A stretch of 64,000 nt of DNA from Flavobacterium piscis (GTDB taxonomy: Bacteria > Bacteroidota > Bacteroidia > Flavobacteriales > Flavobacteriaceae), in contig NZ_LVEN01000010.1 of NCBI RefSeq assembly GCF_001686925.1, positions 248,001 to 312,000 of the forward strand. Reading direction: 5' to 3'. The notes under the pieces were generated by a model. The model did no database searches, was not told where the DNA came from, and worked only from the letters and a program-made list of their open reading frames with translations. Shown in pieces: positions 7,862-18,673 of the stretch (position 1 is the first letter of the stretch; each line of letters begins with the position of its first letter). A program made the position numbers and the translations under genes.

Positions 7862-7890
7862 AAAGCCTGAATTTAAATTTCAGGCTTTTT
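7862..7890 (+). terminator. Rho-independent terminator closing the nadD group
   Basis: AAGCCTGAA and TTCAGGCTT are perfect arms with a short AT-rich loop and a T run. It is 16 bp after the preceding stop codon. Confidence 0.88.
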
Positions 7891-8109: not shown

Positions 8110-9579
8110 TTATGCTTCAATATTAATATCACTTTTAACTCTCGCTCTAACATCACTCAAAGACTGATCAACCAAAAGTTTTCCGTCTCTAAAAACTTCT
8201 TTCAATTCGCCTTGTTTTTCTTCTTCCCATGAAACATTATCTGTTAGATGGTAAACACCGTCGATTAAATCAATTTTCATTAATCCTTTGGCTGATTTTT
8301 TAGTTCCGTCATCTGTGATTGGATCTTTGAATATAGCTCTTCCTTCCCCATCCACTTCTCCGTAAGTAGCTTTCATGGCAAAACCAAAAGTATCTCTGGT
8401 GTTATATTGATACGTAAAAGAACCAATTCCTAAAACAACGTTTGTAGAAGCAAATCCTTTTTCTTTTAATCGTTCTGCAATTTGAGTTGCACGTGCTACT
8501 GTTATACTATCGCCGTAAATAGCTCCAATTTGAGGAATAAGCTCTTTATATCCTTTTGCATTGGTTGTTCCTCCAAAAACATCCCAAAGCAGCTCAATCA
8601 CGCCTTTTTTCTCTTGTTCTGTTTTTCCGTTTGGATTTCCGCAGATAATATCAACCGGATCTCCACTATCAGGACGAATGACCACTTTACCTTCTCTGGC
8701 AACAATATCTTCCTTTAAACGTGGTAAATAATCGGTTAGCACTTTCCATAAATCCCAAGTATCAGAAACGATAGAAACAATTCCTTTTGGATAAACCTCA
8801 GTCACTAATCTTTTAAATGTTTCGCACTCGCCTTCAGTCGTTCCCATACACATTACAGAATGTTCTGTTGCAGCAACTGAACCTGCGATTAATTCGTTAT
8901 CAGAATTGGCATTGTAATAATCTTCAAAGAAATCAATTACCGGAATGGTATCAGATCCTGTAAAACTCAATAAATGTCCGGCTGCAGAAGTTATTGCCGC
9001 TTCGATTCCGCCCATTCCTCTCATAGAGAAATCGTGCGCCTGCCAATCTACAAATTCAGGAACAGATGAAGTTTCACCAGCATATTTGTCTAGTACTTTT
9101 CTGTATTCTTTTGCAATTGTAGCAGAATTACAAGGCAGCCAAATTACGGCTGAAAGTAAAGTCTCGAAATAATTTGTCAGCCAGAAAAATTCCGGAATGG
9201 TATTGTACATCGTAAACATTGGCACTCTCAACGGAACACTTACTCCTTCTGGCAAGGCTTTAAAAACCATTGGGATATAGCCTAAATCGTGTAAATCTTC
9301 GATATGTTTTGTCCCTACCTGATTTTCACCCAAATAATTATTGATTCTTCGTGAGTATTTTTTAATCACTTCTTCTTTTGGCTGTTTGAAGAAATACTCT
9401 TCAAAATCATGAATAATATATTTTTTGATAAAATACTGCAATCCAAAAAACACTACCTCGTCAAGACCTTCTATTCTGGATTTTCTTGGTGTCCAGTTAG
9501 AATATACTAATGTGGTTTTGTCCGGGTATTGTCTTCTGTGGTCAACTTTGTAACCATCTGTTAATAATAGTGGGTTCAT
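8110..9579 (-). CDS. nadV: Nicotinamide phosphoribosyltransferase-like enzyme (NAMPT/NadV family)
   Basis: The 489-residue length and motifs match NAMPT. HDFSMRGM (D183) aligns with the human residue D219 that selects nicotinamide over nicotinate. ATEH (H240) is the catalytic histidine, and VIRPDSGDP (R302, D304) binds the ribose and phosphate. The classical reaction is nicotinamide plus PRPP to NMN. Phage homologues (Namat in the NARP1 pathway) instead join nicotinamide to ADP-ribose pyrophosphate, giving NAD+ directly. Because a PRPP-synthetase-like gene lies in the same operon, either reaction is possible here, and sequence inspection alone cannot decide. It is the last gene of the island, 130 bp after the metallophosphoesterase gene. 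Confidence 0.9.
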   Translation of the reverse strand: MNPLLLTDGYKVDHRRQYPDKTTLVYSNWTPRKSRIEGLDEVVFFGLQYFIKKYIIHDFEEYFFKQPKEEVIKKYSRRINNYLGENQVGTKHIEDLHDLGYIPMVFKALPEGVSVPLRVPMFTMYNTIPEFFWLTNYFETLLSAVIWLPCNSATIAKEYRKVLDKYAGETSSVPEFVDWQAHDFSMRGMGGIEAAITSAAGHLLSFTGSDTIPVIDFFEDYYNANSDNELIAGSVAATEHSVMCMGTTEGECETFKRLVTEVYPKGIVSIVSDTWDLWKVLTDYLPRLKEDIVAREGKVVIRPDSGDPVDIICGNPNGKTEQEKKGVIELLWDVFGGTTNAKGYKELIPQIGAIYGDSITVARATQIAERLKEKGFASTNVVLGIGSFTYQYNTRDTFGFAMKATYGEVDGEGRAIFKDPITDDGTKKSAKGLMKIDLIDGVYHLTDNVSWEEEKQGELKEVFRDGKLLVDQSLSDVRARVKSDINIEA

Positions 9580-9639
9580 ATATTTTAGTTATTTAAATTC
9601 TCGTAAATTTTGGGTTTCATAGAGATAACGAAGTTTATC

Positions 9640-9706
9640 ACAGAGACTCGCCACGTTTTAATTTTCTTTGTGCTTTTTTGTATTTTTCTTTGTGTGTCTT
9701 TGTGTA
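9640..9706. repeat. CTTTGTG-rich short repeats
   Basis: The gap upstream of nadV contains several copies of TTTCTTTGTG or CTTTGTGT, a low-complexity repeat common between flavobacterial genes. I find no operator of the TTTGCGT type and no clear promoter here, so nadV probably depends on readthrough from upstream. Confidence 0.45.
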
Positions 9707-9709
9707 ATA

Positions 9710-10444
9710 TTAAGCTTTATTTCTTCCTTTTTCGTTTGGGTAAAATGATTGCACAACATCGCTTTGCCAAAATACTTTTGTTTCTATATCAATACAACTT
9801 AATTTTCCGTAAAAACCTGCTCCGGTATCTATATTCCAGACATTACATCCTTGCATTGGAATCTCAATATTATAATGAAGCGTTGGTGTGTGGCCAATGT
9901 AAATTTCATTATAAAGCAATAATCTTTTAGGATAGGATAGTGAATCTTTTTTGATTCTTTTGTCCATTGTCAGAGCCATTTCCCAAAGGGTTCTGTCCCA
10001 GGAATAATTTGTTTTGTAATGTTCCTTGTCCGGACCATGCATCGACGAAAATCCTGCGTGAATAAACAAATTATTATTTTCATCTACAAAATAATCTTTC
10101 ATGTTTTCAAAAAAATTACAATGTTTTTCTTTTTCGAAAGAATCAATATTCTGATAACTTTCTATAGTTGATTTTCCTCCGTGCAAAAACCAAATGTCGT
10201 TTACAACATCATTCTTCAGCCATTCGTGACACCAAACATCATGATTTCCTCTTATAAAAATGCATTCTTGTCTTTGGGATAATTCAATCAGAAAGTCAAT
10301 TACTTGTGCCGATTCTCTCCAGCCATCGACATAATCTCCCAGAAAAATAAATCGGTCATTTTCGTTAATTCCAACTTTATCTAATAATTGAATTAAAGCT
10401 TTTAAACCACCGTGAATATCTCCAAAAACTAATGTTCGTTTCAT
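9710..10444 (-). CDS. Calcineurin-like metallophosphoesterase (PPP/ApaH-like)
   Basis: All metal-binding blocks of the PPP-type fold are present in order: GDIHG (8-12), GDYVDG (36-41), RGNHD (65-69), FIHAGF (about 127-132) and IGHTP (about 182-186). Length is 244 aa. Relatives include protein phosphatases, diadenosine tetraphosphatase and nucleotide phosphoesterases. Its ATG overlaps the stop of kptA by 4 bp (ATGA), which indicates coupled translation. I infer, without direct proof, that it acts on a phosphorylated ADP-ribose product of KptA or on an RNA end. Confidence 0.88.
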   Translation of the reverse strand: MKRTLVFGDIHGGLKALIQLLDKVGINENDRFIFLGDYVDGWRESAQVIDFLIELSQRQECIFIRGNHDVWCHEWLKNDVVNDIWFLHGGKSTIESYQNIDSFEKEKHCNFFENMKDYFVDENNNLFIHAGFSSMHGPDKEHYKTNYSWDRTLWEMALTMDKRIKKDSLSYPKRLLLYNEIYIGHTPTLHYNIEIPMQGCNVWNIDTGAGFYGKLSCIDIETKVFWQSDVVQSFYPNEKGRNKA

Positions 10445-10989
10445 GATTTAAACTCTATGTATTTCGCCGGAACTTCATCTGTTAACCAAACATTATTTTC
10501 AGACAAGTAAAATTTAAATCCATCTCTGTGCATCGCACCGCTTCTTACGGTTAGAATCTGAGGAACGCCACGTCTGCTACCTACTTTTATGGCCGTTTCA
10601 CGATCTTTGGAAAGATGCACGTGCTGACGGCTCATTTTTTTCAAACCTTCTTTCTGAATGTTCTCCATAAACTTTCCAACAGTTCCGTGATATAAATATT
10701 CTGAAGGTTCTGTTTCATTCAGGTTTAATTCAACCGAAATAGAATGTCCCTGACTTGCTCTTATTTTCGTTTTATCTTCATTAAAAGCAAAACGTTTTTT
10801 ATCATTGTTTTCTACTACGTAATCTAAAAGAACCGCGTCTAGTTTATTTCCTTTTTGGGAACATTTTAGAATTAATTCCTCAACATCTGCCCAACCGTTT
10901 TCGTCTAATTTTAATCCTATTTTTTCTGGTGAATGTCTAAGTACTAAACTTAGAAATTTGCTCACTGTTTTTGCTATATTTTCATTCAT
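10441..10989 (-). CDS. kptA: RNA 2'-phosphotransferase Tpt1/KptA
   Basis: KptA transfers an internal RNA 2'-phosphate to NAD+, giving nicotinamide and ADP-ribose 1'',2''-cyclic phosphate. The Arg-His-Arg-Arg active site is visible: R18 and H19 in LVLRHSP, R77 in IRASQGHS, and R139/R140 in VGSRRGVP. HGT (101-103) and HVHLS are also family motifs. The 182 aa span is typical. It lies between a macrodomain gene (17 bp gap upstream) and a metallophosphoesterase gene (4 bp overlap downstream). Bacteria lack the tRNA splicing route that makes 2'-phosphates in fungi, so the natural substrate is uncertain; RNA repair or 5'-ADP-ribosylated ends are options. Confidence 0.94.
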   Translation of the reverse strand: MNENIAKTVSKFLSLVLRHSPEKIGLKLDENGWADVEELILKCSQKGNKLDAVLLDYVVENNDKKRFAFNEDKTKIRASQGHSISVELNLNETEPSEYLYHGTVGKFMENIQKEGLKKMSRQHVHLSKDRETAIKVGSRRGVPQILTVRSGAMHRDGFKFYLSENNVWLTDEVPAKYIEFKS

Positions 10990-11006
10990 TATTAATATTT
11001 TTTTTT

Positions 11007-11477
11007 CTAGAAGTCATATACAACGACTTCAACATCATTATTTGAAAGTCTTTGGAGAATAATAGGCTCTATCATCTCCCACTTTCCGCCTGCTAAACCA
11101 CAGCCAATTCTTGGCATATGAACGCTGGCATTACTTTCTTTTGCGAACGAAGCTACTTCTTTCAAGCCATCTTCAATAGCATCATATCGTATTGGAGCAT
11201 TTCCGTTTTCATCTTTATTGATTTTATGCTGACCAATTAAATTTGCTACCCAAAGATCTTCTTCTACCTGAACAAACTGAACTTTACCCAATTCAAAACC
11301 GTCTTTTGATTTAAACCATTCTCTATATTGATTTTCCGGTTTTTTCCATCTTTTAGAAATTGCCATAACAAATCCTTTTCCCCAACCTCCAATATCATTA
11401 CAGATATGCACAATGATTTTATTATTTTCTGATTGAGGAGCCGTTGCATCTCCTTTTCTATATTGAATATCTTTCAT
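11007..11477 (-). CDS. Macrodomain protein, TARG1/Poa1-like
   Basis: This 156-residue stand-alone macrodomain has IVHICNDIGGWGKGFVMAIS (ADP-ribose diphosphate-binding loop) at 22-41 and HMPRIGCGLAGGKW near 119-132. This is the pattern of the ALC1-like class, which includes TARG1, yeast Poa1 and the DarG antitoxin domain. TARG1 has an aspartate after RIGCGL; here the residue is alanine, so lysine-aspartate chemistry of the TARG1 kind may not apply. Poa1 removes the phosphate from ADP-ribose 1''-phosphate, which would suit the KptA gene 17 bp downstream. The exact substrate is undetermined. Confidence 0.88.
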   Translation of the reverse strand: MKDIQYRKGDATAPQSENNKIIVHICNDIGGWGKGFVMAISKRWKKPENQYREWFKSKDGFELGKVQFVQVEEDLWVANLIGQHKINKDENGNAPIRYDAIEDGLKEVASFAKESNASVHMPRIGCGLAGGKWEMIEPIILQRLSNNDVEVVVYDF

Positions 11478-11497
11478 TTATTTCATTATTTTAATCA

Positions 11498-11577
11498 AAC
11501 GTTCCTACGGAACGTAAATACAACACAACACTATTTTTATCTACCGATGAGATGTTCCTATGGAACACCAAAAACTC
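11498..11577. repeat. GTTCC-TAyGGAAC palindromic repeats
   Basis: ACGTTCCTACGGAACGT and GTTCCTATGGAAC are palindromes 45 bp apart in the 152-bp gap between two macrodomain genes. They resemble the CGGAG-type repeats at 7919-8085 and 36800-36949. There is no evident promoter. Confidence 0.6.
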
Positions 11578-11629
11578 GTGTTTACAATTCATTATTTTTG
11601 ATCTATTCTTTCTAAAAATTATAAACTGT

Positions 11630-13090
11630 CTATTTCATTTTTTTTAATTTTAAAGACAGTCTTTCGCACAAATCATCAATATCATTTTTTCTTGCTAATG
11701 CAGTAATCCATTTTTGTGGAATATTGTCAATTCCGTAATACATTCCTGCCAAGCCTCCCGTAATTGCTCCAGTTGTATCTGTATCTCCGCCTAAATTCAC
11801 TGCTTTTAAAACAGTTTCTTCATAAGTATTCGAATTTAAAAAACACCAAAAACTGGCTTCTAAACTGTGAAGAACATAACCTGATGATTCAATTTCATTT
11901 TCAGGATAATCCGCTATATTATTTTTTAAGATTCTATCAAACAATTGAATTTCAATTGGATTAAATTTCTTATCACTTAAAAAATCAGAAACAATCTTTT
12001 GCATGTTTGTATACGCCTGTATTTTATCAATGCCTTTTGAAATTTCTAAACAATACACAACATAGATAAAACAAGCAAATACTGATCTAAAATGAGCATG
12101 GGTAATCGAAGAAACTTCTTTTACTTTTTTATAAATAATTTCGATATCAGTCTCTTTATGAAGATGAAAAACCAAAGGCAGAATTCTCATTAAAGATCCG
12201 TTACCATTATCTTCTTCAAAGAAATTACCCGAAAATCTGGCAGATTCTCCTTTTACAACTCTTGCCAAAGAATACCTTGTAGTTCCTCCAATATCAAATA
12301 CTTTATGATGAGCTCCCCAATATCCTTCCTGCATCCATTTAACAAAAGTTAATGCCATATCTTCTATATCAAAACCTTTGCATAAACTTTCTGCAGTACA
12401 AAAAGCCAATGAACTATCGTCGCTAAATGTCCCGAGAGGTTGATTCCAACACATAAACCCCATCATATCCTGAACAGGACTACTTCTTAAATAATCTCTG
12501 GTTTTAAATTCTACCGGAACGCCCAAGGCATCTCCAATCGCAACTCCAAATAATCCTGATTTCACTTTATATTCAAAGACGTTTTTTATTATATCATTAT
12601 AAATTTTGAAATTTTCATCATCATAACAAACAAAAATGATTTTTTCGAATTGCTCTTTATTTTCAAAAATATCAATTGAATGCAGTGCAATTTCTGCTGC
12701 TAACTCTTTGGGGAATTTATAAATACCTGTACTTATATTAGGGAATGCAATGGTTTTAATATCATTTTCTACCGCCAATTCCAGAACCCTTAAATAACAG
12801 CTTAGCAATAATTCTTCTTCGAGACCTTTACCGTCATTCCAAACCGGACCAACGGTATGAATAACATATTTTGCTGGTAAATTTCCAGCCGTTGTAATCA
12901 CAGCATCTCCAACTTTACAGCCACCTTGCTTATTTCGAATTTTAACGCAATCTTCTAAAATAGCTTTTCCTCCTTTTCTATGGATAGCGCCGTCAACTCC
13001 GCCTCCGCCTAATAAGGAAGTATTGGCGGCGTTTACAATTGCGTCTACTTGAATTTCTGTTATATCGGCTTTAAGGATTTCTATTTTCAT
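11630..13090 (-). CDS. Macrodomain and ADP-ribosylglycohydrolase fusion
   Basis: Two ADP-ribose hydrolase modules are joined in 486 residues. Residues 1 to about 165 form a MacroD-type macrodomain: [20 protein letters not shown], then [15 protein letters not shown] and STGIYKFP. Residues 178-486 are an ADP-ribosylglycohydrolase (ARH/DraG) domain: [10 protein letters not shown], the metal-binding FSDDSSLAF, and [16 protein letters not shown] near 435-450. MacroD enzymes remove ADP-ribose from Asp/Glu and hydrolyse O-acetyl-ADP-ribose, while ARH enzymes act on Arg or Ser linkages. The fusion thus covers more than one linkage chemistry. It follows NADAR with a 7-bp gap. Confidence 0.94.
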
Positions 13091-13097
13091 GACTAAT

Positions 13098-13625
13098 TTA
13101 TTCTAATTCATCCCTAACTTCCATCAAAGCAAAACCTAACAAATTCAAGCCTCTCCACTTTTCAGGATTCAAAATATCTTTGTGATCACCAGCCATCCCG
13201 ATTCCCCAAATGGCATCTACAGGACTTGCTTCTACGATAACTCTCTCTTTTGTGTTGAGTAAAAAAGTTTTTAACTCGGGGTTTTGACTGAATTTATGAT
13301 AATTGCCTTCTTTTACAATATCAAATCTAGCGGCTAACCACAAGGTTTCATTATAATTCTTTACTTCTCTGCCAAACTTTTTGGCTTCGGCAGGAGATTT
13401 AGCCTGAAGGATTTTCTCCAAAATCGCATGGTCTTTAAACAATTCAGCTTTCTTGGCCATCATCCAGTGTTCGGCAGTTTTGTAAATCACTTTATCAACT
13501 TCAAACGAACTCAGCCACCATTGACTAAAGCAGGTTTTAGAAATGCTTCCGTCTTTATTGGGCTGATGTCCCCAGAAGAATAAAAACTTATTTTCTGTGG
13601 CTATATTTTGTATATTGTATTTCAT
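13098..13625 (-). CDS. NADAR family protein (YbiA-like)
   Basis: This 175-residue NADAR domain (formerly DUF1768) has FFWGH near the N-terminus, [29 protein letters not shown] at about 48-63, and [11 protein letters not shown] near 134-144. Family members cleave N-glycosidic bonds of riboside derivatives; some remove ADP-ribose from guanine in nucleic acid, and YbiA acts on riboflavin precursors. The operon context favours an ADP-ribose substrate. Gaps of 7 bp on both sides indicate tight cotranscription with the PurA-like gene and the macro-ARH gene. Confidence 0.93.
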
Positions 13626-13632
13626 TTTTTCT

Positions 13633-14715
13633 TTATTGGAACAAAGAAGTTAACTGTTTGAAATCTTTTGAATCGGGTGAAAATGATCCGTAGATTTCCT
13701 TAAACGCTGTTGTTAAGTTTTCGAACTGATAATCTTTTTCGATCTGATCCATGCAGGTTACCACCAAGTTTCTTTTTGCATTAAAACTGTAAGCGGCATC
13801 CAACTTTAAACTATAATTTAATAGCTCATAATCTAAATCTCCCGTTCTTAACTCTTTCTGAAAATCATTGTAAACACAGGTTTCTTCTTCGTTATTTTTT
13901 AATTTTAATTCTCTTTCATTTGCCATCCAGCCACTTCCGTGTCGGGTAGAATAACTTCTGGTAACATAATAAACCTCAACATCATCTATTTTTAATTTCT
14001 GGCAGATTTCAATTGCATTTTTGGATGTTGTATTGGCATATGTTACATTCGGAAAAACACCATGATCCATGTCGAGAAGAATTCCCTGGCTTCCTTCAAA
14101 AATCAAATTTGAATAGTTTTCTAAAAAACTGTAATCGCTGATATTCCATTTTATTTTATCAATGATTTCCAAATAATGATCTACTTCTGCATCGATTTCA
14201 CTTTCATTTAAAAAACCGTAGTAATAGGCGATTTTTTGCAGTTTCTCTAAGAGCATTTGTCTTGGCGCGATCAAATCTATGGCGAAAAGTTTGTACTGAC
14301 CTTCATTACGTTTCATTGTCGCTCCAACGCCTTTTCCACAAGTTCCGTGATCCAGATTTCTTACGTTGTTTCGGTTTTGCCAAACATCAAACGGAGTTGT
14401 TATTTTGGCTAACGGATGAATATGAAGTGCAATATTTCCTCCTTTTTCTTCGAGTTCTTCTTTTTCATTAAATAAAAAAACGGGATGAATCGTGCAATGT
14501 TCGCTATAATAAGATGGCAAACCGCGAAGTGCTCCGCTGGCAAAACTTGAATGAACGTGCTTTTTGCCCTCAATCATTACGGTATGCGCCGCCTGTTGTC
14601 CTCCTGAAAACCGAATAACTATAGATTCAGGATTTTGCTTCGACAGAAAATCTGTTGTAATTCCTTTTCCTTCATCACCAAATCCTAAACCTATAACTAT
14701 TTGAGCTGTTTTCAT
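13633..14715 (-). CDS. Divergent adenylosuccinate synthetase paralogue (PurA-like)
   Basis: The PurA fold is clear: GFGDEGKG (11-18) with catalytic D14, AHTV with H44, GTCGKGVGAT (124-133), FEGSQGILLDMDHG (206-219) and SYSTRHGSGW (254-263). However, it is only 360 aa against about 425-430 for normal PurA. The arginine-rich GRxRRxGW segment that contacts aspartate and IMP is replaced by QKELRTGDLD (286-295). The guanine-recognition motif TKxD has become TCMD (320-323). PurA joins IMP and aspartate using GTP; these changes suggest a different nucleotide or amino-acid partner. Its position inside the ADP-ribose operon also argues against a housekeeping role. Confidence 0.85.
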   Translation of the reverse strand: MKTAQIVIGLGFGDEGKGITTDFLSKQNPESIVIRFSGGQQAAHTVMIEGKKHVHSSFASGALRGLPSYYSEHCTIHPVFLFNEKEELEEKGGNIALHIHPLAKITTPFDVWQNRNNVRNLDHGTCGKGVGATMKRNEGQYKLFAIDLIAPRQMLLEKLQKIAYYYGFLNESEIDAEVDHYLEIIDKIKWNISDYSFLENYSNLIFEGSQGILLDMDHGVFPNVTYANTTSKNAIEICQKLKIDDVEVYYVTRSYSTRHGSGWMANERELKLKNNEEETCVYNDFQKELRTGDLDYELLNYSLKLDAAYSFNAKRNLVVTCMDQIEKDYQFENLTTAFKEIYGSFSPDSKDFKQLTSLFQ

Positions 14716-14730
14716 TTTTTAAAATATTTT

Positions 14731-14866
14731 TTAAACACATAGAAACATAGCGTTGCAGAATCTAAAAAGGCGTTTCACTCTCATAGCACCATGTGAAATG
14801 CGGTTTCAAAAATTTTTAATTTTTAATTCTCAATTTTTAATTAAATCTACATTTCTATGTGTTTAA
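14731..14866. repeat. Inverted repeat TTAAACACATAGAAA ... TTTCTATGTGTTTAA
   Basis: The 15-bp perfect arms lie at 14731-14745 and 14852-14866 and fill the gap between the vWA and PurA-like genes. The interior holds AATTTTTAATT-type low-complexity sequence. The element ends 2 bp before the vWA stop codon. Confidence 0.7.
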
Positions 14867-14867
14867 T

Positions 14868-15743
14868 TTAAAGCATTTCTATATTATCTAAACCTGTATC
14901 TTTTGTGTCAGAAACTGGTATTGATCCTAAACCTGACCCTGAATTTTTATGTTTTTCACAAATGATTTTCTTGATTACATTCGGGATTTCTTTGTGATCT
15001 TCGATAGACAAACAATTTTGGCCCAGTAATTCTTTCCAGGCCACATTTGCTCTTACCGCCTGATCAGAATGTAATACGCTGATATGATACACTTCGTAAC
15101 GTTTCTGAGCTTCTTTTAATAATTCAAGAGACGTATACGTTTGCTGTCCCTGACCCATAATCTCTTTTATGGCAGATGCCGGAAGCGTTGGTAAATTTGG
15201 TTCATCACCCACGGTAAACAACAATCCTTTTTGACCTCTTTTTTCGAAAGCATCGGTTTTGGTATGAAAAGCGGCAAAATACCACGCCAGAAGATAACTT
15301 TCTCCGGCGTTTCCTCCGCCTCCACCTTCAATATAAGTTCTCGTTAGCCACATATCCAATTCTTCATCGCCAGATTCAAATTGTCCAACCTGAAGCGGAA
15401 ATCTGTCGCATTCGTGATCTCCAATTCCTAAAAACAAAAGTGCCGGATCCGGAACTCCGCCCTGAATAATTCCTCCCATTAATTTTGGCAGTCCTTCTTT
15501 AATCAGTTCATGCGGAATATGTCCCATACTTCCTGTAACATCCAATCCTAAAATAATTGGAACTGTATTGGGATGCACTTCAGAATCTCTGGCTTCTCTA
15601 AACGTAATGCCGTTTGGATTCATAGATTCGTGTGCCATTCCTAATTGATTTTGAACGAAAATCTCACTTGCAGATTTAAATCCGTAACCTGCTTCTTTTG
15701 CTCTGCTCAAACGAGCGCCTAAATCGTATCTTGTACCTCCCAT
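14868..15743 (-). CDS. von Willebrand factor A domain protein
   Basis: Residues 62 to about 250 look like a vWA domain with a MIDAS-type metal site: LDVTGSMG (D68, T70, S72), a Gly-rich GGGGGNAGESY loop, and VGDEPNLP supplying a later acidic residue. The N-terminal 55 residues are unlike known domains to my eye, and the C-terminal tail is polar. vWA proteins mediate metal-dependent protein assembly, often with a chaperone or AAA+ partner. The gene starts 2 bp after the small helical protein gene, suggesting that the two proteins act together. Its link to ADP-ribose metabolism is by operon position only. Confidence 0.82.
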   Translation of the reverse strand: MGGTRYDLGARLSRAKEAGYGFKSASEIFVQNQLGMAHESMNPNGITFREARDSEVHPNTVPIILGLDVTGSMGHIPHELIKEGLPKLMGGIIQGGVPDPALLFLGIGDHECDRFPLQVGQFESGDEELDMWLTRTYIEGGGGGNAGESYLLAWYFAAFHTKTDAFEKRGQKGLLFTVGDEPNLPTLPASAIKEIMGQGQQTYTSLELLKEAQKRYEVYHISVLHSDQAVRANVAWKELLGQNCLSIEDHKEIPNVIKKIICEKHKNSGSGLGSIPVSDTKDTGLDNIEML

Positions 15744-15745
15744 AA

Positions 15746-16081
15746 CTAAAATGTTTTACCAAATAAATATTCGAATCTCTTTTTTGTCACTTCAAACTGA
15801 ATATTTAAATTTCTGATTGTTAATGATAATTCCATATCTTTTTGCACAAATGCTTCCGGTTGAAAGTCGGCAAAAGTCAAACTATTCTTGTCAAGCGGAC
15901 TAATATCGATAAGGCCCTCCTGCTCTCTTTCGAGTCTTTTTATTTTTAGTTCGATATCTTCGACTCTTCTTCTGTATATTAATTCAGAATCTTCACCAAT
16001 GGTTTTGGCTCTGTCTTCTCTAATTTGATCATTGTTTCTTCTTAAAGACTCAATAAATCTTGGTTTTAAATCATCACTCAT
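15746..16081 (-). CDS. Small helical protein of unknown function
   Basis: I do not recognise this 111-residue protein. It is highly charged; residues about 35-60 (RRRVEDIELKIKRLEREQEG) are predicted coiled coil, and a second helix spans about 80-105. It has no signal peptide or membrane segment. It lies 2 bp upstream of the vWA gene, so a heteromeric complex with that protein is plausible but unproven. Confidence 0.7.
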   Translation of the reverse strand: MSDDLKPRFIESLRRNNDQIREDRAKTIGEDSELIYRRRVEDIELKIKRLEREQEGLIDISPLDKNSLTFADFQPEAFVQKDMELSLTIRNLNIQFEVTKKRFEYLFGKTF

Positions 16082-16094
16082 AATGTTTGTGGTT

Positions 16095-16258
16095 AGTTTC
16101 AGGTTTTCTTTGTTTCAGGTTTCAAGTTGCACACTGAACTTGAAATTTGGAATCTTAAACTTGAAACGGTTAATAGCTTTCGTTTTTTGTTTCAGGTTTC
16201 AGGTTTTTCTTGTGTCAGGTTAACGTATAGAACGTGAAACCTGAAACTTGAAACTTTT
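16095..16258. repeat. TTTCAGGTTTCAAGTT repeat cluster
   Basis: The 181-bp gap between the PARG-like gene and the small helical protein gene is filled with copies of GTTTCAGGTTTCA and the inverse TGAAACCTGAAACTTGAAAC. They can fold back on each other. I see no open reading frame with coding character and no promoter box. Confidence 0.65.
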
Positions 16259-16262
16259 CAAC

Positions 16263-17081
16263 TTAATTTAATATTTCTTCAAATTGTTTAAAATTTGATT
16301 TTTTTTCGGAATTGTCAAATACTGCAAAAACTATTTTTTTGAAAGCGCCTGCGTATTTTTCTGCAATAATTTCTTTGAATAATTGTGCTACATCTTTGGG
16401 TTCGTTTCTAAAAACCCCACAACCCCAGGCTCCCAAAATCAATGTTTCACTTTTTTGTTTTAATGCAATTGCCAAAACTTTATCCATTCTGTTTTTTAAG
16501 ACCTTTTCTGTTTCAGCAATTTCTTCTTTTCGGTTATGCTGCAGCATCGCGCCTTTATTTGGTGCAGGTGCTGTAATTACGTCTGCGACAAATGGTTTTT
16601 CAAAATAATCTCCATTATCATCATTCCAAAACAAAACATTCGGACTATAAATCATGTAATCTGAATATAAAAACGAAGACTGATTTCTATTAAAGTCATA
16701 CATCGCTTTGTCTTTGATTTGCGTTTCATACAGGTTTGAAGATCTGGCCAGACTTTCTTCCTGAGCCGAAGCGCCTCCTAAAAATCCACCGCCCGGATTT
16801 TTTGCAGAAGCAAAATTTAAAATACAGATTTTACCGTTTTTCTCTTCAGCAATGGCTTCAATTGTAGAACAGTTTTTGGTGACAATTTCTGTTTCAAACG
16901 TATTTGAAATTGGCGTTTTCAGGATTGCATCCCAATCGTTTGGCGCAATTGTAAACGTATTTTGTATGGATTCTTCGAGTTCTTCTTCTATGTTAATCCT
17001 TTTTCCTTTATAATCATAAAAACCATTTTTTATGATTTCTAAGGTTTTATTCGCTATTTCTACTCTGTAATTTTTATTCAT
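16263..17081 (-). CDS. PARG-signature ADP-ribose hydrolase (TIGR02452-like)
   Basis: This 272-residue macrodomain-fold protein carries the poly(ADP-ribose) glycohydrolase signature: GGG at 97-99, seven residues, then QEE at 107-109 (GGGFLGGASAQEE). ILNFASAKNPGGG precedes it and LILGAWGCGVFRNEP follows, as in the bacterial PARG/TIGR02452 group. Bacterial PARGs with this motif cleave ribose-ribose bonds of poly(ADP-ribose) and release ADP-ribose. No PARP-like gene is visible in the window. Its ATG overlaps the stop of the PRPP-synthetase-like gene by 4 bp (ATGA), so these two proteins are made together, and its product may feed that enzyme. Confidence 0.93.
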   Translation of the reverse strand: MNKNYRVEIANKTLEIIKNGFYDYKGKRINIEEELEESIQNTFTIAPNDWDAILKTPISNTFETEIVTKNCSTIEAIAEEKNGKICILNFASAKNPGGGFLGGASAQEESLARSSNLYETQIKDKAMYDFNRNQSSFLYSDYMIYSPNVLFWNDDNGDYFEKPFVADVITAPAPNKGAMLQHNRKEEIAETEKVLKNRMDKVLAIALKQKSETLILGAWGCGVFRNEPKDVAQLFKEIIAEKYAGAFKKIVFAVFDNSEKKSNFKQFEEILN

Positions 17082-17905
17082 AATTCTAATTTTACAACCT
17101 CAACCTTTTCATTATCAAAATCTTTAAAAGAGTTGGTTGTGAATATTTTGTCGAAACAATCTAAAACTTCAAAACCTTTGTTGAAGATTCCGTGGCTTAC
17201 GGCTAAGTATAATTTTCCGGCATTTTTGTTTTTTAATTCTTCGGCTAAGCCAACAAAAGTTCCGCCGCCGTCGCAAATATCATCTACAATTAAACAATCT
17301 ATGCCGTTTAAGTCATCTTCATACACTTTAAAACCAGATAATCTTCCTGTTTTTACATCTCGGCTTTTGCTGCATTCTACTACATCAACTCCGCCTAAAA
17401 ATTCAGACACTTTGTAGATTTTTTTAAGAGCGCCACCATCCGGAGAAATCAATTTTACGTTTTCGCCTGTAACTTTTAGAACTTGTTGAATAAAAGTATG
17501 ATTCGGAATCACTTCGCAATTGTTTACCAATGCCGGAGTAACTTCAGAATGCGCATCAAAAACAAAAACTTTATTCAATTGAAGTCCGTTGATGATATCT
17601 GCATAAACTTTTACAGAAAGCGGTTCTCCTTTTATCATCACACGATCTTGTCTTGCAGCCGGAAAATACGGAATAAACAAATCGATAATTTTCACATCCA
17701 TTCTGCGTAAAGCATCAACTGTAATACACAATAAACCCAAATCGTTGAATGAATTTAAGCGGTGTGTGATGGTTACTTTTTGAGTTGTATCAAAATCCGG
17801 ATTGATTTTAATGTGAGGTTCTCCGCCAGAAAATGTAAAACTTTGAAATTTAATTTCTTCCTGATTTTGAAATGGAGCGAATTGTGGGTCTAGGTTAAGT
17901 ATCAT
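17078..17905 (-). CDS. PRPP-synthetase-like pyrophosphokinase, candidate ADP-ribose pyrophosphokinase
   Basis: The fold of ribose-phosphate pyrophosphokinase is clear: PYFPAARQDR (79-88, canonical PYFGYARQDR), DAHS (117-120), SPDGGALKK (154-162), SKSRDVKTG in the catalytic flexible loop (179-187), and the ribose-phosphate loop IVDDICDGGGTF (206-217). At 275 aa it is shorter than housekeeping Prs (about 310-320 aa). Prs makes PRPP from ribose 5-phosphate and ATP. A short divergent relative, Adps of phage NARP1, instead makes ADP-ribose pyrophosphate. The pairing with a NAMPT-like gene and a PARG-like gene supports the second role, but this is inference. It is the first gene after the strongest promoter in the island. 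Confidence 0.88.
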   Translation of the reverse strand: MILNLDPQFAPFQNQEEIKFQSFTFSGGEPHIKINPDFDTTQKVTITHRLNSFNDLGLLCITVDALRRMDVKIIDLFIPYFPAARQDRVMIKGEPLSVKVYADIINGLQLNKVFVFDAHSEVTPALVNNCEVIPNHTFIQQVLKVTGENVKLISPDGGALKKIYKVSEFLGGVDVVECSKSRDVKTGRLSGFKVYEDDLNGIDCLIVDDICDGGGTFVGLAEELKNKNAGKLYLAVSHGIFNKGFEVLDCFDKIFTTNSFKDFDNEKVEVVKLEL

Positions 17906-17916
17906 AGTTTTTATAG

Positions 17917-17937
17917 TTTGCGTTAATTATACGCAAA
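17917..17937 (-). promoter_or_regulatory. Operator 1, TTTGCGT-N7-ACGCAAA, over the -7 box
   Basis: This 21-bp palindrome with perfect 7-bp arms has its centre at 17927. One arm overlaps the last four bases of the -7 box, so a bound repressor should block promoter opening. The same pattern recurs at 17969-17989. The likely ligand is the NUDIX-winged-helix protein encoded next door. Confidence 0.75.
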
Positions 17938-17964
17938 TGTAGAATTAAATTTTAAATAAACAAA
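17934..17964 (-). promoter_or_regulatory. Promoter of the PRPP-synthetase-like gene and downstream island
   Basis: On the minus strand TTTG (17961-17964) and TACATTTG (17934-17941) are separated by exactly 19 bp, an ideal flavobacterial -33/-7 promoter. The start codon is 28 bp downstream. Operators lie on both sides. Confidence 0.8.
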
Positions 17965-17968
17965 TTAT

Positions 17969-17989
17969 TTTGTGTAAAAATTACGCAAA
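17969..17989 (-). promoter_or_regulatory. Operator 2, TTTGTGT-N7-ACGCAAA, upstream of the -33 box
   Basis: This copy has one mismatch in one arm relative to operator 1 and the same 7-bp spacer. Its centre at 17979 is 52 bp from that of operator 1, close to five helical turns. It overlaps the last codons of the NUDIX gene. Confidence 0.72.
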
Positions 17990-18673
17990 CTTTATTTCGA
18001 AGTGAAAGCCTTTATCTATTAACTCATTGTATTTCAATTTATTAAATCGAAATAATTTTGCCGGACGTCCGCTTTTTATAGGTGAAAATTTTTCTGTTTC
18101 TTCTAAAAACCCATAACTGAGGATTTTTTTTCTAAAATTTCGTCGGTCGATTTCTTTTTCTAAAATGGTACAATAAAGGTTTTCCAGGTCTGAAAACAGA
18201 AATTCCGCCGGAAGCAAATCGAAACCAATTGGTTCGTAAGTCAGTTTTGCTTTTAATCTTAAAATGGCTTTTTCAATAATTAAATTATGATCGAATGCCA
18301 AAGAAGGAATTTCGTCAATTTTATACCATTGTACTTTATCTGCATCGGTATCGGCTTTAATTTCAAGATTCGAAGCATCAACTAAAGCATAATACGCAAC
18401 CGAAATAACACGATTTCTGGAATCTCTGTGAATATCATCGCCAAAAGTGTACAGCTGCTCCATAAAAGTAAGCTGAACATTGGTTTCTTCGTGCAATTCC
18501 CGAATTACAGCATCACTCAAAGATTCATCGTTTTTCACCAATCCGCCGGGTAAAGCCCAATATTTATCGGCTGAACCAAATTTTTGCTCGATTAAAAGAA
18601 CATATAAACCGTTATTTTTATATCCAAAAACAATGGCATCAACGGCGATTCTAATATTTTGTAAATTTTCCAT
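17981..18673 (-). CDS. NUDIX-winged-helix transcriptional regulator (NrtR-like)
   Basis: Residues 8 to about 140 form a NUDIX domain, and residues about 150-230 a winged-helix domain ending SGRPAKLFRFNKLKY. This is the architecture of NrtR, a repressor of NAD+ metabolism released by ADP-ribose. The Nudix box is almost complete: G44, E50, R58, E59, E62 and E63 are present and only the final glycine is replaced (N65), so hydrolysis of ADP-ribose or a related compound may be retained. Two matching palindromes just downstream of the gene are its probable binding sites. A role like that of Bacteroides AraR, a sugar-responsive member of the same family, is less likely here. Confidence 0.88.
   Translation of the reverse strand: MENLQNIRIAVDAIVFGYKNNGLYVLLIEQKFGSADKYWALPGGLVKNDESLSDAVIRELHEETNVQLTFMEQLYTFGDDIHRDSRNRVISVAYYALVDASNLEIKADTDADKVQWYKIDEIPSLAFDHNLIIEKAILRLKAKLTYEPIGFDLLPAEFLFSDLENLYCTILEKEIDRRNFRKKILSYGFLEETEKFSPIKSGRPAKLFRFNKLKYNELIDKGFHFEIKFA

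Follow-up and report, generated by a model that had tools for sequence, protein, structure and literature searches.

Why a bacterial chromosome should carry, on one strand and in close order, enzymes resembling those of NAD+ synthesis together with several families that remove ADP-ribose is the question raised by an island of twelve genes in Flavobacterium piscis. The island lies in a stretch of 64,000 nucleotides (contig NZ_LVEN01000010.1, positions 248,001 to 312,000 of the forward strand; hereafter the window), where its twelve minus-strand open reading frames (ORFs) run from position 18673 down to 8110. We consider it likely, with a probability of about 0.72, that the island is an inducible system recycling ADP-ribose and nicotinamide into NAD+. 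Sequence comparison predicts that its genes resembling phosphoribosyl pyrophosphate (PRPP) synthetase and NAMPT match Adps and Namat. These are the two enzymes, described mostly from phages, of NAD+ reconstitution pathway 1 (NARP1), which leads from ADP-ribose and nicotinamide to NAD+.

The Adps- and Namat-like enzymes

In the NARP1 pathway, as demonstrated for phage and Paenibacillus homologues, Adps produces ADP-ribose pyrophosphate, which Namat joins to nicotinamide to yield NAD+ (PMC12774641). Comparison of the island's NAMPT-like protein with solved structures returned 611 bits for PDB entries 9w5x and 9w5w and 470 bits for 9ke8, all three titled nicotinamide phosphoribosyltransferase, as compared to 238 bits for human NAMPT. 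The residue numbers of 9w5x fit the numbering used for Namat of phage SPbetaL1 in PMC12774641, and 19 of the 20 NAD+-contacting residues listed there are identical in the F. piscis protein, the remaining one being an Ala to Ser exchange. According to the same source, a clamp motif, GSX-phi-X-phi-X-phi-TRD, separates Namat from NAMPT. This motif reads GSFTYQYNTRD in the window. Of 80 namat ORFs from the islands that we fetched, 79 retain it, the exception being a 189-amino-acid (aa) fragment.

The PRPP-synthetase-like protein shares 43, 40, 31 and 28% identity with four phage proteins encoded beside Namat, as compared to 23% with the PRPP synthetase of its own genome. An x-H-S motif and the sequence CDGGxTF are common to it and all four phage Adps proteins, whereas the PRPP synthetase carries DLHA and IDTGGTL instead. 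The GEPLSVK stretch of the island protein recurs in only one of the four phage proteins, and VDDICDGGGT is present in 71 of 76 Adps ORFs. A tree of 15 Adps sequences and one PRPP synthetase (16 rows) was poorly resolved and had long branches. The assignment as canonical NAMPT and PRPP synthetase was dropped, as the signature residues point to Namat and Adps. In an earlier reading of the bare sequence (the original prediction), the two genes had been labelled PRPP-synthetase-like and NAMPT-like. These labels describe the similarity correctly but miss the NARP1 identity suggested by the clamp motif, the 19 of 20 contacts and the Adps motifs. The central proposal of that reading, namely that ADP-ribose is rebuilt into NAD+, is supported by the Namat scores, clamp and contacts as well as by the resemblance to phage Adps.

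Layout of the island and its tandem operator

The features are listed below, with the basis of each assignment in brackets.

17981..18673, minus strand: R, regulator with Nudix and winged-helix domains, NrtR family, 230 aa, first gene, Nudix box intact (profile match, residue check)
17969..17989, unstranded: operator box 1, palindrome TTTGYGT-N7-ACRCAAA, overlapping the end of R (pattern)
17917..17937, unstranded: operator box 2, palindrome as box 1, 52 bp from box 1 and directly before adps (pattern)
17934..17964, minus strand: Bacteroidota-type promoter TTTG-N19-TACATTTG, with the -7 element overlapping box 2 (read from sequence)
17078..17905, minus strand: A, Adps, ADP-ribose pyrophosphokinase-like, 275 aa (sequence comparison, motifs)
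16263..17081, minus strand: P, microbial-type PARG, 272 aa, the sole PARG_cat_microb gene found in the genome (PARG_cat_microb profile)
15746..16081, minus strand: s, protein of 111 aa without family match, first of the s-v-U unit (ORF, recurrence in relatives)
14868..15743, minus strand: v, vWA-like protein with DVTGS motif, 291 aa (motif, weak fold matches)
13633..14715, minus strand: U, PurA paralogue, 360 aa, a second PurA being encoded elsewhere in the genome (Adenylsucc_synt profile)
13098..13625, minus strand: N, NADAR, 175 aa (NADAR profile)
11630..13090, minus strand: M-H, macrodomain fused to an ADP-ribosylglycohydrolase (ARH), 486 aa, the sole ARH gene found in the genome (Macro and ADP_ribosyl_GH profiles)
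11007..11477, minus strand: D, DarG-like macrodomain, 156 aa (profile matches below curated cut-offs)
10441..10989, minus strand: K, KptA RNA 2'-phosphotransferase, 182 aa (KptA profile)
9710..10444, minus strand: E, calcineurin-like metallophosphoesterase, 244 aa, in ATGA overlap with K (Metallophos profile)
8110..9579, minus strand: T, Namat, predicted nicotinamide ADP-ribose transferase, 489 aa, last gene (sequence comparison, signature residues)
7862..7888, minus strand: terminator-like hairpin 3' of namat (consensus match only)

Families were assigned by Pfam/NCBIfam profile searches of the island proteins. R matched NUDIX and NrtR_WHD, and the Namat gene matched NAPRTase/NAMPT_N; bit scores were 148 for PARG_cat_microb, 189 for NADAR, 161 (Macro) and 239 (ADP_ribosyl_GH) for the fusion protein, 175 for KptA, 66 for Metallophos and 164 for Adenylsucc_synt. 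Protein D scored 18.5 bits against Pfam Macro (cut-off 22) and 46.6 bits against DarG, its best placement though below the NCBIfam cut-off of 250. Protein v had no Pfam match, its AlphaFold model is of low confidence (mean pLDDT 50.5) and gave weak vWA fold matches only; neither s nor v matched any family. Thus, ORFs and profile matches bear out the twelve same-strand genes and most family labels of the original prediction, the soft spots being the small macrodomain, the vWA assignment and the 111-aa protein. Its description of gene spacing was also accurate: there are two 4-bp ATGA overlaps (adps/PARG and KptA/phosphoesterase) and four gaps of 2-17 bp, in addition to five wider ones of 75-181 bp. 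Within the four gaps measuring 130-181 bp, no terminator-like site was listed for the minus strand. Genome-wide queries at E up to 0.001 returned a single additional PRPP synthetase and a single additional PurA, but no further NAMPT-like gene. A toxin-antitoxin system of the DarTG type was dropped as a candidate, as none of the twelve genes matched DarT in these profile searches. A nadD-like gene lies downstream of the island in the window.

The 75-bp gap between R and adps contains the two palindromes, whose distance of 52 bp is near five helical turns, and these are the only exact boxes in the 5.9-Mb genome. Additional genomic sites with up to one mismatch occur at noise level (6 sites vs 9 with a reversed control pattern), as do sites with two mismatches in the window (4 found vs 2.5 expected). 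The promoter assigned to the gap follows what we take to be the Bacteroidota consensus; a looser pattern is present in 64 of 65 R-adps gaps, a count with no shuffle control behind it. R and adps are both in view in 70 of 81 loci examined, and two boxes with at most one mismatch lie between them in 68 of these 70 loci, one box being found in one locus and none, within the bounds used, in another. Spacing of the boxes is 52 bp in 59 of 76 close pairs and 50-56 bp in the remainder.

A blind scan for the exact tandem, independent of any gene, was carried out in a collection of 84,980 species, each represented by a single genome. It yielded at least 118 stretches, while approximately 0.006 tandems would arise by chance in 257 billion bases with a composition like that of the window. 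All of the 118 matches listed are Bacteroidota by title, and 116 of them have an island family in a piece of up to 8 kb (R in 102, adps in 87 and namat in 58). Fifteen control blocks of 8 kb gave no match; 22 control blocks of 4 kb were excluded (10 gave a match, which in 9 cases was to R, at block ends lying where the fetched stretch includes R itself). In a metagenome-assembled genome (MAG) of the Marinilabiliaceae (L263:2453-6214), the tandem boxes are followed by R, an isochorismatase-family protein, nicotinate phosphoribosyltransferase and NAD synthetase, and gene position suggests that the isochorismatase-family protein is likely a nicotinamidase. Because the boxes precede NAD-salvage genes in this locus, the regulator can be tied to NAD metabolism. 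In a Bacteroidales MAG (L256:3475-6672), the boxes precede R, a protein with a DKSGSMS motif lacking a Pfam match, and an ARH. R-like genes, tandem boxes and an ARH-like gene also occur together in three further Bacteroidales loci (L233, L295 and L303), the DKSGSMS protein standing between in L256 and L233; loci of this type amount to a minimal version of the island in bacteria of the rumen or gut.

Residues of R were mapped by hand on alignments with NrtR and AraR, using a numbering offset of 3 that fits Arg34, Arg86, Gly89 and Arg41. Arg98 of Shewanella NrtR contacts ADP-ribose, its equivalent being Gly89 in AraR of Bacteroides thetaiotaomicron (PMC4666351), and this position (RD[SP]R) is kept as Arg in 70 of 70 R proteins. 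The Nudix box G-x5-E-x7-RE-U-x-EE is likewise intact in all 70, and R was therefore filed as a member of the NrtR family rather than as a classical NrtR. ADP-ribose releases mycobacterial NrtR, whose palindromic binding site likewise has a 7-bp spacer (PMC6800001). From the residues of R, its ligand is probably an ADP-ribose compound, which R may hydrolyse as well. Induction by ADP-ribose, a further element of the original prediction, draws indirect support from the dedicated operator, from the one ADP-ribose-contacting arginine retained in this NrtR-family protein and from the NAD-salvage genes of L263. Control by arabinose as in AraR was dropped: the Arg98 position is kept, there are no sugar genes among the twelve, and NAD-salvage genes are found in L263.

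Constant ends and exchanged genes among relatives

A search with Adps at 1e-60 identified 56 of 219 genomes of the genus, giving the 56 same-genus islands considered here. Namat was found in 12 of 149 genomes of the family at 1e-30 and in 20 of 395 genomes of the phylum at 1e-100, 16 of these 20 belonging to the same genus; many sister islands, like the nearest homologues of the window's proteins, are from Flavobacterium. R directly precedes adps in 52 of the 56 islands, and a helicase gene takes this place in the other 4. Namat is in view in 54 islands, in each case downstream on the same strand and with no recognised island family beyond it. Omission of the four islands with the helicase gene before adps, in which R is outside the stretch, and of two with namat outside the stretch or contig left 50 whole islands. 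These contain 0-12 genes between adps and namat, 308 in total, of which 12 are unassigned. The middle families are NADAR (43 islands), KptA (35), phosphoesterase (30), ARH (21, plus 3 fused), a second ARH (19), s-v-U (19), Macro (16, plus 3 fused), DUF4291 (14), DarG-like (13) and deoxyribosyltransferase-like (13). Rarer are PARG (9), 2-oxoglutarate (2OG) oxygenase (9), a 137-aa family (5), a second Macro (5), DUF2971 (2) and SIR2 (1). At least one eraser family, by which we mean NADAR, Macro, ARH, PARG or DarG-like, is present in 44 of the 50. Minimal islands consisting of R, adps and namat occur in two of the 50 and in addition on a Persicobacter plasmid. The genes s, v and U are found together in 22 of the 56 islands and are all absent from the other 34. 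Gene order follows the majority order in 967 of 1027 gene pairs, bearing in mind that order and spacing counts were drawn from related, non-independent genomes.

Taken together, these data show that only the ends of the island are constant, while the eraser set in between is exchanged among species. The conserved synteny anticipated by the original prediction is indeed found, with namat in place in every island where it is in view and recurring genes in the middle. A gene set of this type is thus real, found in many relatives and marked by one operator, but only its ends are constant, and some relatives keep R and erasers with no adps or namat in view.

The location is largely constant as well. 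The stretch includes nadD for 47 of the 54 islands with namat in view; of the other seven, one is cut by a contig end and six lie elsewhere. In genomes of the genus lacking the island, 11 of 12 have a LysR gene (7) or an alcohol dehydrogenase gene (4) within 1.5 kb of nadD. A roaming defence element was dropped as a candidate, as the islands occupy mostly this one site, which has an empty counterpart in island-less genomes. In L043 and L047, two loci of another sample, a gene for an M48-peptidase-like protein and one for an 1800-aa helicase-nuclease are found between R and adps, the boxes remaining before adps; the same insertion lies directly before adps in L107, L119, L122 and L141, where the boxes also remain. 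The helicase-nuclease matches the PADLOC defence candidate PDC-S37 and has a WGR domain. In L016, the island also encodes a SIR2-TPR protein resembling NADase defence proteins (L016:6278-8188), its gene lying between adps and that of the phosphoesterase. Identity of the s protein amounts to 95-99% in six and to 83% in two of the eight same-genus loci having s, values above those of its neighbours v and U.

Two eraser families can be linked to published activities. Microbial PARG and ARH of F. johnsoniae remove ADP-ribose from a tyrosine-modified peptide (PMC11541775, 2024). Genome G667, which we take as F. johnsoniae, has one PARG_cat_microb match and one ARH match, and since both genes sit inside island L115, the assayed enzymes are probably island products. 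Among the rarer families, the 137-aa proteins (alignment A4; e.g. L245:4837-5253), which are absent from the window, gave a confident structural model (pLDDT 94.1). Its best solved match is the toxin domain of RhsP2 (probability 1.00, TM 0.54, E 0.0055), followed by KptA, and RhsP2 is an RNA ADP-ribosyltransferase (PMC11833690). The model thus predicts an ADP-ribosyltransferase-like fold for this family.

Proposed mechanism, alternatives and known systems

KptA consumes NAD+, leaving nicotinamide and an ADP-ribose phosphate as products. In the cycle that we propose, R would repress the island by binding to the tandem boxes observed at the adps promoter. ADP-ribosylating toxins, NADases or repair of the KptA type would raise the level of ADP-ribose, upon which R would be released, by analogy with Shewanella and mycobacterial NrtR. 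PARG, the Macro-ARH fusion, the DarG-like macrodomain and NADAR would then free ADP-ribose from protein, DNA or RNA, as expected from their families, while KptA and the phosphoesterase may repair RNA ends at the expense of NAD+. Phosphoesterase and macrodomains could bring the ADP-ribose phosphate left by KptA to ADP-ribose. Finally, Adps would use ATP to form ADP-ribose pyrophosphate, and Namat would join it to nicotinamide, regenerating NAD+ and closing the loop. A broader version of this scheme is possible, though the odds are somewhat against it: the islands may form an NAD+-recovery regulon of Bacteroidota, in which a Nudix repressor with its catalytic box preserved senses its signal (ADP-ribose or its pyrophosphate), destroys it and thereby resets itself, and controls the two-step loop along with cargo of new chemistry, namely the 137-aa protein, DUF4291, DUF6939, 2OG oxygenase and the vWA-PurA pair.

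Several observations weigh against the recycling scheme. By sequence, the solved structure closest to R is that of the arabinose regulator AraR (156 bits), Shewanella NrtR following with 89 bits. The Nudix box, intact in R, is impaired both in AraR and in those NrtR proteins that control NAD metabolism (PMC4666351), and the position of the phosphate-contacting Arg41 is Gln in R of the window and of Persicobacter, while four other R proteins have Arg. The gaps of 130-181 bp could hold internal promoters, the s-v-U unit is not accounted for by the recycling scheme, and six of the 50 whole islands have no eraser family, two of the 50 having no middle gene at all. Moreover, four genomes from another family of the order, perhaps Chryseobacterium-like, have erasers with no adps or namat in view, and Namat was not found in these four genomes at 1e-100. 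Their islands hold varying sets of NADAR, oxygenase, s-v-U, DarG-like, DUF4291, PARG, Macro, SIR2, ARH, KptA and phosphoesterase genes. Three of them show R together with boxes that mostly have one mismatch, the fourth being cut by a contig end, and no adps or namat occurs in the next 12 kb of these three. Because these islands keep erasers without NARP1 in view, recycling is not obligatory but one module of the island.

The modules also occur apart in more distant bacteria. The v-U pair lies with NrtR-like regulators (30% and 26% identity to R) on plasmids of Agrobacterium vitis and Rhodococcus, with no NARP1 annotated in the stretch. Adps-Namat pairs without an annotated eraser alongside are found on plasmids of Bacillus, Paenibacillus and Arthrobacter. 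Hence the NARP1 and eraser modules are separable, and many Bacteroidota combine both under one operator. As further observations, the vWA-PurA-like pair is found on Acetobacter, Rhodococcus and Agrobacterium plasmids (L061, L062 and L063), with an NrtR-like neighbour in two and no NARP1 annotated nearby, and on an Agrobacterium plasmid the position of s is occupied by a longer protein that weakly matches DnaJ. A Curtobacterium plasmid (Actinomycetota; L313:4308-10297) carries an annotated PRPP synthetase gene, TerD, a Namat homologue (50.6% identity), NADAR and, further on, NUDIX, thereby linking NARP1-like genes to an eraser in a phylum other than Bacteroidota.

The exchange of cargo between islands would also fit a rack of immunity genes directed against ADP-ribosylating toxins of rivals or phages, with the swapped erasers serving as antidotes and NARP1 restoring the NAD+ lost in an attack or in abortive infection. 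The SIR2-TPR gene of one island, the helicase-nuclease defence candidate before adps in others and the occurrence of TIR_2 genes in 27 of 56 island genomes as compared to 46 of 163 others (p 0.008, unadjusted for genome size) are consistent with such a role. However, the F. piscis genome itself has no TIR_2 match, no cognate toxin gene is among the twelve, and the prevailing site beside nadD with its empty counterpart argues against it, albeit six islands are elsewhere and that of one relative is on a plasmid; we regard this explanation as rather unlikely. Clearly less probable still is an operon devoted first of all to nucleic-acid repair, in which KptA, phosphoesterase, NADAR and macrodomains mend ends and bases, and Adps and Namat repay the NAD+ spent by KptA. 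KptA and phosphoesterase indeed co-occur in the whole islands (both in 29, one alone in 6 and 1, neither in 14; p 5e-7, shared descent ignored), and ADP-ribosylated RNA ends are among the substrates of microbial PARG and of some macrodomains (PMC11833690). Yet, there is no match to an RNA ligase or 2H phosphoesterase among the twelve genes in the Pfam/NCBIfam searches, 15 of the 50 whole islands lack KptA, and ARH and PARG, which also act on protein, are common cargo.

It is very improbable that Namat is an ordinary PRPP-using nicotinamide phosphoribosyltransferase, engaged in plain nicotinamide salvage and surrounded by accidental neighbours. Phage Namat is able to use PRPP in vitro, too (PMC12774641), and a nadD-like gene follows downstream, but the latter is also present at the empty site of island-less species. 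The clamp motif and the contact residues speak for Namat proper, and adps occurs in all 56 islands (by selection) with namat alongside in 54 of the 54 in which it would be in view. Hardly credible, finally, is a mere pile-up of genes without common function at a chromosomal hot spot. The variable presence of genes and foreign insertions such as the peptidase-helicase pair would be expected in this case, whereas 296 of the 308 middle genes belong to named families, on one strand and mostly in the order noted above, and the operator, found blindly, marks the same families across the phylum.

The founding paper on NARP1 reportedly appeared in Nature in 2024, and de Souza and Aravind, who are said to have described NAD-utilising gene neighbourhoods in 2012, may have seen parts of such clusters. 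NARP1 was discovered as a phage counter-defence, and a test of bacterial NARP1 from January 2026 states that its role in bacteria needs more study (PMC12774641). With NARP1 of phages and of Paenibacillus foliorum, studied there, the island shares both enzymes, the Namat clamp and contacts, and the predicted two-step route; here, however, the two genes lie on a bacterial chromosome and bound a regulated island that has its own regulator and operator and up to 12 other genes between them. In the RyDEP-NARP1 operon of mycobacteriophage DyoEdafos, an ADP-ribose-releasing enzyme likewise stands beside Adps and Namat and feeds NARP1 (PMC13232231), but this is a single viral glycosidase for cyclic ADP-ribose rather than several bacterial eraser families acting on protein or nucleic acid.

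R resembles NrtR regulators in its Nudix and winged-helix domains, in the 7-bp spacer of its palindrome, as for mycobacterial NrtR, and in the NAD-salvage genes of one relative locus, but differs by its intact Nudix box, by tandem boxes about 52 bp apart and by its targets, NARP1 and erasers. AraR is the solved structure closest to R, and tandem sites are reported for AraR as well, while R differs in having Arg in place of Gly89 and an intact Nudix box, and the twelve genes include none for arabinose. Stress or toxin-antitoxin operons, too, contain erasers of the PARG, NADAR or macrodomain type, such as the Deinococcus radiodurans PARG operon, a repair operon (PMC11833690), and DarT-NADAR or DarTG (for NADAR gene contexts, see PMC11125620 and PMC9503650); the present island has neither ligase nor DarT, and NAD+ synthesis is built in. 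The lack of a ligase match likewise sets it apart from KptA-ligase RNA repair operons. Searches of the open-licence literature found no paper with the islands or the operator as its topic, judged by title or start of abstract. Bacterial NARP1 as such is already known; in these islands it would form the frame of an eraser regulon.

The islands offer a possible answer to the role of NARP1 in bacteria, testable in the tractable model F. johnsoniae. If the recycling scheme is true, it would show how cells that use NADases and ADP-ribosylation regain NAD+, including after NAD+-wasting toxins or immune reactions. The operator provides a search handle, as genes behind the boxes become candidates for ADP-ribose or NAD+ chemistry, which may help to assign unnamed families.

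Further along the window (26232-61700), ten large ORFs that we checked comprise, among others, TonB receptors as well as glycoside hydrolases from families 2, 3, 31, 95 and 97, pointing to a polysaccharide-utilisation region.

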